Notes under the pieces: model-generated
What the model was told of the DNA's origin: nothing
What the model saw: the letters and a program-made list of their open reading frames with translations, nothing else
Databases searched by the model: none
Shown: positions 2,616 to 37,554 of the stretch, one piece after another
Numbering within the stretch: position 1 is the stretch's first letter
Layout: the number at the start of each line of letters is the position of its first letter
Translations under genes and position numbers: made by a program
NCBI GenBank assembly: GCA_017622085.1
Contig: JAGARU010000146.1
Coordinates: 62,001-126,000, forward strand
Direction of reading: 5' to 3'
Length of the DNA stretch: 64,000 bases
Source of the DNA: Clostridia bacterium
GTDB lineage: Bacteria > Bacillota > Clostridia > Oscillospirales > CAG-272

Positions 2616-4049
2616 ATGAAACGTTCCAGCGGTGTTTTAATGCACATTACGTCCCTTTGGGGCGAGTATTCCTGCGGCGGCCTTGGTACGGCGGCCAAGG
2701 AATGGATCGATTTTCTGGCAGATGCCAAATTTACTTACTGGCAGACCCTTCCCTTCTGTCTGCCCGATGAATACAATTCCCCCTACAAGTCCTTCTCTGC
2801 CTTCAGCGGCAACCCTTACTTTATCGATCTTCCCACCTTGGCGTATCAGGGCTTGATCACCCGTGAGGAGCTGGACGCTTCTCTGCAGGAGGGACCCTAT
2901 GCCTGTGAATTTGATCGGTTGGGCAAGGAGAGAATCGCGCTTTTGAAGCGCGCGGCCACCCGCTTTACCGACGTTAAAAAGATGAATGCCTTCTATAAAA
3001 CCCATAAGCACACGGAGGAATTCTGCAAGTTTATGGCCTTGAAGGAGGCCAACGGTATGAAGCCGTGGTCCAAATGGAAGACCGAAGAGTATGACCCGGA
3101 TACGTTCTTTGCCTGGAAGTTTATCCAGTACACCGTATTCTCCCAGTGGTTTGCCATTAAGAAATATGCCAATGAAAAGGGTATCAAGATCATTGGTGAC
3201 ATTCCGATTTACGTAGATATTGACAGCTCCGACGTTTGGGCTTCTCCCGAGCTTTATCAGCTGGACGAGAACCATAAGCCCAAAAAGGTGGCCGGTGTTC
3301 CGCCGGATTACTTCTCCGAGGACGGACAAAAGTGGGGCAACCCCTTGTACGACTGGGATAAGATGGCAGAGGACGGCTTTGCCTGGTGGCGTGACCGTAT
3401 GGCCTTTATGTGCGAGCTGTTTGACGGAGTTCGGATCGACCACTTCCGTGGTCTGGAATCTTATTTCTCCATCCCTGCCAAGGCTAAGACGGCGCGGAAC
3501 GGAAAATGGGTGAAGGGCCCCGGCATGCCCTTGATCAACGCATTGAAGGAGGCTTGCGGCGACAAGCTGATCATTGCGGAGGATCTTGGTGAGATCACGC
3601 CGGAGGTAAAAGCGTTGGTTGAGGAAAGTGGATTCCCCGGCATGCGCGTTATGCAGTTCGGCTTCTTGGGTGATGCGGATTCTCCCCATTTGCCTCACAA
3701 TTATAACAACAACTGTATTGCCTATACGGGCACCCACGACAACAACACCCTCCTCGGCTTTGTATGGGATCTGAGCGTGGAGGACCGTGAGCGGTTCTTA
3801 AGCTACATTGGCTACGAAAGCCCTGCGTGGGATCAGTGCTATGACTTTGTGATCCGCACCATGATGGCCAGCCATGCCGGCTTGGTTGTCTTCCCTGTGC
3901 AGGACCTTTTGAAGTACGGAAAGGATACGCGCATTAACACCCCCGGTGTGAGCGCCGGAAACTGGGCCTTCCGCATAACGAAGGAGCAATTTGAGACACT
4001 GAACAAGCATCTCTACCGTTATTGGAACGAGCTTTACAGCCGCGATTAA
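2616..4049 (+). CDS. malQ: 4-alpha-glucanotransferase (amylomaltase, GH77)
   Basis: This cytosolic enzyme transfers alpha-1,4-glucan segments between maltodextrins and releases glucose. The protein has 477 residues, the usual length of compact bacterial amylomaltases. GH77 hallmarks are visible: GVLMHITSLWGEYSCGGLG at the N-terminus, the nucleophile motif VRIDHFRG (Asp about 274), the acid/base motif IAEDLGEITPEV (Glu about 322) and YTGTHDNNTLLGF (Asp about 375). The ATG at 2616 has an AAGGAG site 10 bp upstream. It is monocistronic and convergent with a maltodextrin-type ABC transporter operon sharing the terminator at 4057-4094, so imported maltodextrins are its likely substrate. Confidence 0.97.
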   Translation: MKRSSGVLMHITSLWGEYSCGGLGTAAKEWIDFLADAKFTYWQTLPFCLPDEYNSPYKSFSAFSGNPYFIDLPTLAYQGLITREELDASLQEGPYACEFDRLGKERIALLKRAATRFTDVKKMNAFYKTHKHTEEFCKFMALKEANGMKPWSKWKTEEYDPDTFFAWKFIQYTVFSQWFAIKKYANEKGIKIIGDIPIYVDIDSSDVWASPELYQLDENHKPKKVAGVPPDYFSEDGQKWGNPLYDWDKMAEDGFAWWRDRMAFMCELFDGVRIDHFRGLESYFSIPAKAKTARNGKWVKGPGMPLINALKEACGDKLIIAEDLGEITPEVKALVEESGFPGMRVMQFGFLGDADSPHLPHNYNNNCIAYTGTHDNNTLLGFVWDLSVEDRERFLSYIGYESPAWDQCYDFVIRTMMASHAGLVVFPVQDLLKYGKDTRINTPGVSAGNWAFRITKEQFETLNKHLYRYWNELYSRD

Positions 4050-34061: not shown

Positions 34062-34559
34062 TTAGTGATTCAGCTGAGCGGCGATGGCGGCGTCCTTTTT
34101 GAGGACGGCCTCGGCATCGGCCCTACGCTTATCATCCAGACGCTGAGCAAGTGCCTCATCGCTAAGAGCAAGAATCTGTGCAGCAAGAAGAGCGGCGTTG
34201 CCTCCGCCGTTAATAGCAACGGTGGCTACCGGGATGCCAGTGGGCATCTGCACAGTGGAAAGCAAGGCATCCATACCGTCAAGAACGCTGGATTTACAAG
34301 GGATTCCGATGACGGGTAAGGTGGTTCGTGCGGCCAGGGCTCCTGCCAGGTGAGCAGCCATGCCGGCGGCGGCAATGATAACGCCGAAGCCGTTCTTTTT
34401 CGCATCCGCGGCAAAAGTTCCGGCCTCCTCAGGCGTTCTGTGGGCAGAATACACGTGCACCTCAAAGGGAATATCGAGAGACGTGAGCATATCGGTAGCT
34501 TTGGTGATAATGGGAAGGTCACTGTCGCTACCCATAACGATACCAACTTTTTTAACCAT
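34062..34559 (-). CDS. purE: N5-carboxyaminoimidazole ribonucleotide mutase / AIR carboxylase
   Basis: Provides CAIR for PurC. The 165-residue protein contains [20 protein letters not shown] (about 5-24), YSAHRTPE (about 40-47, catalytic His) and [25 protein letters not shown] (about 65-89, split as [11 protein letters not shown] and TLPVIGIP), with [11 protein letters not shown] later. No purK lies beside it. PurE may work as a class I enzyme with PurK elsewhere, or accept CO2 directly like class II. First gene of the operon, with GGAGG 7 bp before the ATG at 34559. The ZTP riboswitch lies immediately upstream. Confidence 0.97.
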
Positions 34560-34590
34560 AATTGCCTCCTTGAAAACTATTTTGATACTG

Positions 34591-34706
34591 CAAAACAAAA
34601 AGGGCGCACTTACCCCTCATAACGGTTCAGTGTGCCCAGACGGTCGGCTTTGTACGATCTCTGTTCCACTGTGTTACTCACATTTATCCGTCAGTCGCAG
34701 AGATTA
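34591..34706 (-). promoter_or_regulatory. ZTP (pfl) riboswitch with intrinsic terminator controlling the purine operon
   Basis: The RNA forms P1 ATCTCTG/CAGAGAT (34698-34704 with 34657-34663) and an internal TGTG/CACA hairpin. The diagnostic pseudoknot is GACGG (34688-34692) with CCGTC (34639-34643), inside the conserved GCCGACCGTCTGGGCA block. The GGGCA at the 3' edge (34633-34637) also starts a terminator stem (GGGCACAC / GTGCGCCC, 34630-34637 with 34602-34609) ending in a U-rich run. Ligand binding by the aptamer would block that terminator. ZTP/ZMP accumulates when 10-formyl-THF is short, so the switch turns the operon on, including fhs. Confidence 0.87.
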
Positions 34707-34730
34707 CATTAAAGAATGATCAACATGGTT

Positions 34731-35987: not shown

Positions 35988-36725
35988 ATGGAACGAGCCG
36001 TTATTATTACCGGGGCCTCCGGCGGAATTGGGCAGGCGACAGCCCGCGTATTCGCCGCTCACGGTTGGAATTTGGTTTTAGGTTATAACAGAAACAAAGA
36101 ACGAGCCGAGGCCTTGGCGCAGGAATTGGCGCAAGAATTTTCCGTGCGGGCAGTTGCCTTTGGGGGCGATCTTTCCGATCCCTCTGCGTGCCGGCGGATC
36201 GTTGCCAAAGCGATTTTTGAATTTGGCCGGGTGGACGCTTTGGTTGCCAATGCGGGAATCGCTGAGTCCCGTTTGTTTACGGAAACAACGCCGGAGGAAT
36301 TCCGGACTATGATGGACACCAATCTGGGCAGTGTATTCTACACCTGTCAGGCGGCGGCAAAGGAGATGATTGCGGCCGGTGGCGGTGCCATGGTTACCGT
36401 TTCCTCCATCTGGGGACAGGTAGGTGCGGCCATGGAAGTGGCATACTCTGCCGCAAAGGCCGGGGTGATCGGACTTACCAAGGCCTTAGCCAAGGAGCTG
36501 GCGCCCTCTTGCGTTCGGGTCAACTGCGTTTGCCCCGGAGTGATCGACACGGAGATGAACAAGGATTACTCCCCCGAGGTTATGGAGCGCTTGGCTGAGC
36601 AGACCCCGCTTGGACGCATCGGTACGCCCGAGGAGGTTGCCGAGAGCATTTATTTCCTTTCCTCCGAGGCTTCCGGCTTTGTGACGGGACAGGTTCTTGG
36701 GGTAAATGGCGGATTTGTCATTTAA
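35988..36725 (+). CDS. short-chain dehydrogenase/reductase (FabG-like)
   Basis: A 245-residue classical SDR that reduces a carbonyl with NAD(P)H. The cofactor motif TGASGGIGQA (about 8-17), NAG (about 87-89), and the catalytic Ser-Tyr-x3-Lys (VSSIWG at about 138, AYSAAKAG with Tyr about 151 and Lys about 155) are all present. Length and the C-terminal GQVLGVNGGFVI match 3-oxoacyl-ACP reductases. It is not among fatty-acid genes, so the substrate may be different. Its start lies 55 bp after mutY, with TAAGGAG 8 bp upstream and a possible extended -10 (TGATAGAAT) in the gap. Confidence 0.88.
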   Translation: MERAVIITGASGGIGQATARVFAAHGWNLVLGYNRNKERAEALAQELAQEFSVRAVAFGGDLSDPSACRRIVAKAIFEFGRVDALVANAGIAESRLFTETTPEEFRTMMDTNLGSVFYTCQAAAKEMIAAGGGAMVTVSSIWGQVGAAMEVAYSAAKAGVIGLTKALAKELAPSCVRVNCVCPGVIDTEMNKDYSPEVMERLAEQTPLGRIGTPEEVAESIYFLSSEASGFVTGQVLGVNGGFVI

Positions 36726-36728
36726 TAC

Positions 36729-36757
36729 TTGCTTTTTGAACCGATTCGTGATACAAT
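36729..36757 (+). promoter_or_regulatory. promoter of pnuC and its leader
   Basis: TTGCTT (36729-36734), 17 bp, TACAAT (36752-36757) with an extended -10 TGA. It begins just after the SDR stop codon. Confidence 0.75.
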
Positions 36758-36763
36758 ACGGAT

Positions 36764-36850
36764 CGAATAACTGCCACCGGGTAGTGTGATGCTTAGCATC
36801 CGTTTGCGCGTCGTTAGGTCTTTGAAGACGCGCATGCGGATGCTTTTTTT
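36764..36850 (+). promoter_or_regulatory. attenuator-type leader RNA of pnuC (class not recognised)
   Basis: A strong two-part terminator, GCATCCG/CGGATGC (36796-36802 with 36837-36843) enclosing GCGCGTC/GACGCGC (36806-36812 with 36827-36833), ends in seven T residues 5 bp before the pnuC ribosome site. An upstream GATGC (36788-36792) can pair with GCATC (36796-36800), destroying the terminator base. This is a classic antiterminator arrangement. The preceding 25 nt, with CTGCCACCGGGTAGTGTG, would be the sensing part. It does not match TPP, FMN, preQ1 or ZTP consensus elements that I know. A very small riboswitch or a protein-binding attenuator is possible. Confidence 0.7.
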
Positions 36851-36861
36851 GTGGAGGATTT

Positions 36862-37554
36862 ATGCGACGGTTACTGACGTACTTTTCGCGGGGGGAGCTA
36901 GCTTTGTGGTTCTCTTCCCTTGCTTTGATTCTTGCTTCCTTTTTCCTGTTTGACCGGGAAAGCTATCTGACCCTTGCGGCATCGATTGTGGGGGTTACTT
37001 CTCTGATCTTTTGTGCCAAGGGAAATCCCATTGGGCAGGCGTTGATGGTAATTTTCAGCGTGCTTTACGGCATCATTTCCTACTCCTTTGCCTATTACGG
37101 AGAGATGATTACGTATCTTGGCATGACGGCGCCGATGGCTTTGTTTTCTCTGATTGCGTGGCTGGTGCATCCCTATAAGGGAAATCGGGCTGAGGTGGCA
37201 GTGAATCGGCTGAGATGGCGGGAGATTCCCTTTCTTATCGTTTTAACAGCGGCGGTGACGGTGGGCTTCTACTTTATTTTGGACGCCTTTGGGACGGCAA
37301 ACATTGTGCCAAGCACTTTGTCCGTTGCCACCAGCTTCGGAGCGGTATATCTGACCTTCCGGCGGTGTCCTTACTTTGCTTTGATCTATGCGGCGAACGA
37401 TCTGGTACTGATCGTTTTGTGGGCTTTGGCGGCGAGAACGGACATTTCTTATCTATCCGTAATCATCTGCTTTGCCGTTTTCTTGGTGAACGACCTTTAC
37501 GGCTTTATCAGCTGGCAAAGGATGGCACGGCGGCAAACAGAAACCAAAATATAA
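36862..37554 (+). CDS. pnuC: PnuC-family vitamin/nucleoside transporter
   Basis: A 230-residue inner-membrane protein with seven hydrophobic segments, in the PnuC family that carries nicotinamide riboside, or in related clades thiamine or riboflavin. Family features are FCAKGNPIGQALMVIFSVLYG (about 49-69, split FCAKGNPIGQ and FSVLYGIISY), TYLGMTAPMA (about 92-101), SVATSFGAVYLTFRRC (about 152-167) and VNDLYGFISW near the C-terminus. The ATG has a GGAGG site 7 bp upstream, placed just beyond the leader terminator. With that attenuator, its expression probably follows a cofactor level. NAD precursor uptake is the most likely role. Confidence 0.88.
   Translation: MRRLLTYFSRGELALWFSSLALILASFFLFDRESYLTLAASIVGVTSLIFCAKGNPIGQALMVIFSVLYGIISYSFAYYGEMITYLGMTAPMALFSLIAWLVHPYKGNRAEVAVNRLRWREIPFLIVLTAAVTVGFYFILDAFGTANIVPSTLSVATSFGAVYLTFRRCPYFALIYAANDLVLIVLWALAARTDISYLSVIICFAVFLVNDLYGFISWQRMARRQTETKI

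Follow-up and report, generated by a model that had tools for sequence, protein, structure and literature searches.

A probable guanidine-IV riboswitch with an additional hairpin in the leader of a pnuC-family gene from a Clostridia bacterium

Results

Anatomy of the pnuC leader

The window analyzed here is a 64,000-nucleotide stretch of contig JAGARU010000146.1 from a Clostridia bacterium (assembly GCA_017622085.1), and all positions given below are counted from its first letter. The gene under control of the leader occupies 36862-37554 on the plus strand and encodes a protein of 230 amino acids, which the initial annotation had called PnuC, correctly so, as the protein matches PF04973 (E 7e-33) and exceeds the cut-off of TIGR01528. 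It is preceded by a GGAGG ribosome site at 36853-36857 (+), and the upstream SDR gene ends with its stop codon at 36725. A likely promoter can be read from the sequence at 36729-36757 (+), with TTGCTT separated by 17 nt from TACAAT in an extended -10 context (TG-A-TACAAT); it was not called by a consensus scan, its -35 element agreeing at only three of six positions, and TTGACA/TATAAT-like pairs are present in many relatives at a comparable distance 5' of the first hairpin of the leader.

That first hairpin (P1), ACUGCC-ACCG-GGUAGU, spans 36770-36785 (+) in both the predicted fold and the alignment described below, and displays the loop A36776-C-C-G36779. It is followed at 36788-36800 (+) by a small intervening hairpin, GAUGC-UUA-GCAUC, whose arms (GAUGC, 36788-36792; GCAUC, 36796-36800) rival the terminator for its 5' arm. 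The two-tier intrinsic terminator itself extends over 36795-36844 (+), with lower arms at 36795-36803 and 36836-36844 and apical arms at 36805-36812 and 36827-36834, supported by the fold and by the alignment of 88 relatives, and it runs into a U7 tract at 36844-36850 (+). The terminator loop, GUUAGGUCUUUGAA, is 14 nt long (36813-36826, +), and its invariant columns include GGU at 36817-36819, the partner of a kissing strand ACC in the loop of hairpin 1 (36776-36778, +), and G36824. The strong two-tier terminator and the GAUGC/GCAUC antiterminator described in the initial annotation are thus all in place; the U-run and GGAGG are separated by 2 nt, however, and not by the 5 bp that had been given.

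The leader folds at -40.1 kcal/mol compared with -25.6 +/- 3.2 kcal/mol for shuffled sequences (z -4.6), and none of 200 shuffles was as low. In folds of partial transcripts the GAUGC/GCAUC hairpin persists to 36839 and has been replaced by the terminator by 36842. A leader peptide was considered and rejected, the frame in question being a 55-codon ORF (GTG at 36786) that overlaps the terminator and reads over pnuC in another frame.

Conservation and covariation among PnuC leaders

Relatives were drawn from a scan of named genomes, which gave at least 562 PnuC relatives of which 80 were kept, and from a family search, which matched in 64 of 146 genomes and from which 30 loci were taken; the two sets together comprise 110 PnuC loci, with some genomes occurring in both. 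The RNA is found upstream of PnuC at 101 of these 110 nearest loci, 93 recognized by pattern and eight by covariance model, one of the latter being partial at a contig end. Neither the pattern nor the covariance model found it at the remaining nine (L008, L012, L013, L015, L016, L031, L055, L078, and L109). The first five of these make up a small set of near PnuC relatives that have a different hairpin 5' of the gene and have apparently lost the switch.

Alignment of the leaders of homologous pnuC genes, as the initial annotation had proposed, was made from 94 parsed leaders, of which four were dropped as duplicate or overlong and two more (L069 and L076) were excluded, leaving 88 rows; the leaders are related to one another, and the counts that follow are not independent. 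The stem of hairpin 1 (columns 6-10/15-19) is 99.8% paired with changes on both sides at three pairs, and the two terminator stems are paired in 98.4% and 98.7% of cells, with covariation present. All three pairs of the kissing interaction ACC:GGU are standard in 88/88 rows, the outer pair being AU in 85 and GC in three (GCC:GGC). Across the 88 rows, 15 pairs changed on both sides compared with 6.3 in shuffles, and controls in which the structure was shifted by one to three columns were paired in only 28-41% of cells. The proposal of a riboswitch-type attenuator on pnuC is supported by this conservation and covariation. Sensing had been confined to about 25 nt upstream of the terminator, and this part of the proposal does not stand: the 14-nt terminator loop ranks among the most conserved stretches in the relatives and takes part in the kissing interaction, and it belongs to the sensor.

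The small hairpin (columns 32-36/46-50) is paired in 94.8% of cells of the 88 rows, both partners varying at its outer and inner pairs, and 62 of the 79 gap-free rows can pair fully both ways, as the small hairpin and as the terminator base. With a folding energy of -1.5 kcal/mol or lower between hairpin 1 and the 7-nt apical arm as the criterion, 123 of the 134 PnuC leaders that could be parsed have the small hairpin (11 lack it), as do 7 of the 35 parsed leaders that stand before other assigned genes (Fisher p 9e-17, a value inflated by relatedness); three of 137 PnuC leaders and six of 41 other leaders were unparsed, and ten leaders without an assigned gene were excluded, of which six could be parsed and five have the hairpin. 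By class, the hairpin occurs in 3/3 L120-like MATE leaders, 3/19 other MATE leaders, and 0/6 SMR leaders, and only 89 of the 123 PnuC hairpins beat composition shuffles at 0.05.

Assignment to an RNA class

Published work is cited throughout from text passages of the papers concerned. The search of the leader against Rfam 15 that had been suggested gave no family match, and the earlier statement that the RNA does not fit the TPP, FMN, ZTP, or preQ1 classes, all of which were included, is upheld. The best score at the leader, SR6_antitoxin with 19 bits against a cut-off of 55 (E 1.3), was taken as chance. Rfam 15 also failed to match the RNA at ten PnuC loci, where the sole match was a tRNA elsewhere, and did not report it at 12 loci where the RNA precedes other genes; annotation based on Rfam would therefore overlook the element, although its class has been published.

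That class is guanidine-IV, also known as GGAM-1 or the mepA motif, which is described as two hairpins joined by a pseudoknot, with the second hairpin acting as a terminator, upstream of sugE, MATE, and PnuC genes (PMC7736828). The same paper, from 2020, lists PnuC among the gene classes that go with this RNA, and published guanidine KDs for guanidine-IV are about 64-210 uM (PMC7736828, PMC11611296). Both the class and its association with PnuC are thus already known, and the leader had been called unrecognized in error. The nucleotides reported as essential in loop 2 of the Lactococcus lactis (L. lactis) RNA are G66, U67, and G72, with G62 less conserved (PMC7736828). By spacing only, G66, U67, and G72 map to G36818, U36819, and G36824, and the published G62 aligns with a U here if no one-base gap is introduced.

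An orphan variant, Gd4v, is separated from guanidine-IV by two features, D1 (G or not) and D2 (an extra hairpin), and the Gd4v construct retains G66 and U67 (PMC9788692). Since D1 is among the mutated positions and G66 and U67 are kept, D1 would be G72, which on our reading corresponds to G36824, again placed by spacing from the published text. D1 is G in 132/134 parsed PnuC leaders (89/89 plus 43/45), the window included, and likewise in 6/6 SMR and 21/22 MATE leaders; loop 2 is 14 nt long in 132/134 parsed PnuC leaders, and the D2 hairpin is absent in the window. Because D1 is G, D2 is absent, and the loop has 14 nt, the window RNA is of the guanidine-IV type. One Gd4v-like RNA was encountered, at L210:509-604, with a 22-nt loop holding an internal hairpin and a CCC:GGG kiss, upstream of an ornithine cyclodeaminase-family gene, a gene context that agrees with the published association of Gd4v (PMC9788692).

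The same RNA before other genes

A search model derived from the PnuC leaders matched in 22/398 genomes of the phylum and 78/391 genomes of the class. Of the 104 matches listed, 98 were examined for the downstream gene through similarity to a small number of reference proteins, with the outcome PnuC (47), MATE (23), PNPOx (8), SMR (6), radical SAM (2), DUF1989 (1), PPDK-like (1), and unassigned (10). Nine representative proteins were checked against Pfam and NCBIfam: for the SMR proteins SugE was the best match, though under the cut-off of that model, and the DUF1989 protein matched urea-amidolyase-associated families below their cut-offs. DUF1989 genes are partners of guanidine riboswitches. 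SMR genes are their standard partners (PMC7736828). The kissing pairing is also present in 6/6 parsed SMR and 22/22 parsed MATE leaders, and the second loops of the window RNA and of a SugE-type leader (L122) are identical except at a single base, which is compensated in the kissing pair.

Some of the remaining contexts are worth recording. PNPOx genes lie behind the RNA at L124, L126, L128, L139, L178, L179, L204, and L208, and the one PNPOx protein checked (L124) is nearest to 5-nitroimidazole reductases (Nim), under the model cut-off. At L130 and L131 the guanidine-IV-like RNA is 5' of a small radical SAM protein (PF04055 in L130), and one contig (L175) carries two copies 2.9 kb apart, at 550-640 and 3440-3530, the first before an unassigned gene and the second before pnuC. 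A plasmid search with the riboswitch found one unannotated Subdoligranulum record, and a plasmid search for the SugE-type leader gave no match.

The genome of the window contains a single strong copy of the RNA, and searches of this genome, which is 97.8% complete, found neither an SMR gene nor a riboswitch of the guanidine-I, -II, or -III class. A riboswitch-linked PnuC and an SMR protein (E below 1e-20) co-occur in 0/45 genomes, with SMR present in 23/391 genomes; the trend is the one that complementary occurrence would give, but it is not significant (p 0.09).

The riboswitch-linked PnuC proteins

A quick tree of PnuC proteins with long branches was made from 117 rows, 84 of them representatives of 168 riboswitch-linked proteins and 33 without the RNA, and it was used solely for the division of the riboswitch branch from all other rows. 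A supported branch places 84/84 riboswitch rows on one side, with 13 RNA-less rows among or beside them and 20 RNA-less rows opposite. Residues were compared with NmPnuC (4qtn) and with seven PnuC rows from the other side of the tree. At the WxxW motif, which according to one paper binds substrate (PMC7162841), the two tryptophans are replaced in the riboswitch branch by A (76/84) and Y (82/84), and an aspartate, D211, is present in 82/84 rows of this branch, with A, S, or G in the others.

Discussion

Guanidine is a toxic nitrogen compound, and the leader is very probably a guanidine-IV riboswitch that would sense it and act as a transcriptional ON switch controlling pnuC. Its ligand, its ON direction, and the kissing mechanism are those that we infer by analogy with published guanidine-IV work. 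Transcription would start near 36764, and hairpin 1 would fold first, followed by the GAUGC/GCAUC hairpin and then by the apical part of the terminator. With guanidinium present, ACC of hairpin 1 would kiss GGU of the terminator loop, closing a pocket formed by conserved loop nucleotides, and this kissing complex, together with the small hairpin holding the 5' arm, would hinder the lower terminator stem so that pnuC is transcribed. If guanidinium is absent, the 3' arm (CGGAUGC) would oust the small hairpin, complete the full terminator, and stop transcription 5' of pnuC.

The published mechanism of guanidine-IV is steric, setting the kissing complex against the growing terminator stem (PMC11611296, PMC7736828), and in the text passages of these two papers no mention was found of a hairpin that holds the terminator 5' arm. 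Comparison of the leaders and their folds suggests a role for the small hairpin as an antiterminator, though it may be a spacer only, as guanidine-IV RNAs in the literature are reported to switch without one.

Other readings of the locus are less probable. The initial annotation had considered a cofactor sensor plausible, and a riboswitch for NAD+, NMN, nicotinamide riboside (NR), or thiamine has in its favor that PnuC-family carriers transport NR, riboflavin, and also thiamine. A further point for it is that NAD+-II riboswitches stand before Streptococcus pnuC genes (PMC8632094). Such a sensor is nevertheless highly improbable, because the structure is that of guanidine-IV and SugE/SMR and MATE genes share the RNA; it also precedes a DUF1989 gene, there is no Rfam match to classes of this kind, NAD+-II uses a pseudoknot to the ribosome site and not a terminator (PMC8632094), and the PnuC branch linked to the riboswitch is without WxxW. 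Still less credible, and the least probable reading of all, is an attenuator that senses no ligand, or a simple terminator, separating the SDR gene from pnuC: the strong terminator and U7 tract do exist, but a plain terminator would not be expected to keep loop nucleotides invariant and a kissing pair covarying over 88 leaders.

A change of ligand within the fold deserves somewhat more consideration, although we regard it as improbable. The PnuC branch could have changed its ligand, for example to a substituted guanidine or to some other small cation, as Gd4v apparently did; variants of the fold exist (PMC9788692), the controlled gene differs from SugE, and the PnuC leaders, with their added hairpin, make up a recognizable branch. 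Against this, the loop is nearly identical to that of the SugE type, with L122 differing only at the compensated kissing base, and D1 is G and D2 absent in the window, whereas the Gd4v-like RNA of L210 differs at both.

Taking the leader as a guanidine-IV riboswitch, the question of what the PnuC protein transports follows. The authors of the 2020 study speculate that riboswitch-linked PnuC proteins export guanidine (PMC7736828), and in the accessible text on PnuC, guanidine, and transporter our literature search found no test of such export. The protein sequences and their riboswitch association suggest that a look-alike of the vitamin B3 transporter handles guanidine, and that this PnuC subfamily moves it, probably outward. 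More tentatively, with our belief falling just short of evenly balanced, we propose the combined view that the riboswitch PnuCs constitute a family of their own, guanidinium exporters derived from the vitamin-transporter fold, with WxxW lost and an acidic residue fixed, and that their riboswitches carry a dedicated three-strand antiterminator so far undescribed in the class. With one PnuC subfamily now tied to the switch and found to be without the substrate motif, the idea of guanidine export is directly testable, and genes of this subfamily should not be annotated as nicotinamide riboside transporters.

A true ZMP-ZTP riboswitch (RF01750, 50.3 bits against a cut-off of 39) is present in the window at a distance of 2 kb, on the opposite strand at 34627-34708 (-), directly 5' of a gene at 34062-34598 that we take to be purE-like, and it is a separate element. 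The NAD+-II riboswitch, or pnuC motif, of Streptococcus pnuC genes acts on translation, and is described with stems that are bulged and a pseudoknot that involves the ribosome site (PMC8632094); the window leader resembles it in its location before pnuC but shows none of these traits, and its loops pair with each other on a terminator platform. With Gd4v the window RNA shares the overall fold and the terminator, but Gd4v is without a G at D1 and carries the D2 hairpin on its terminator, whereas the window RNA has the G and lacks D2. To guanidine-IV the likeness is closest in structure and in context: the window and its relatives have two hairpins, a loop-loop pseudoknot, a terminator as the second hairpin, and a loop 2 with conserved GG(U/C)...G, with SugE/SMR, MATE, and PnuC genes downstream, and the difference is the extra hairpin that the PnuC branch and the L120-like MATE leaders have between the two.
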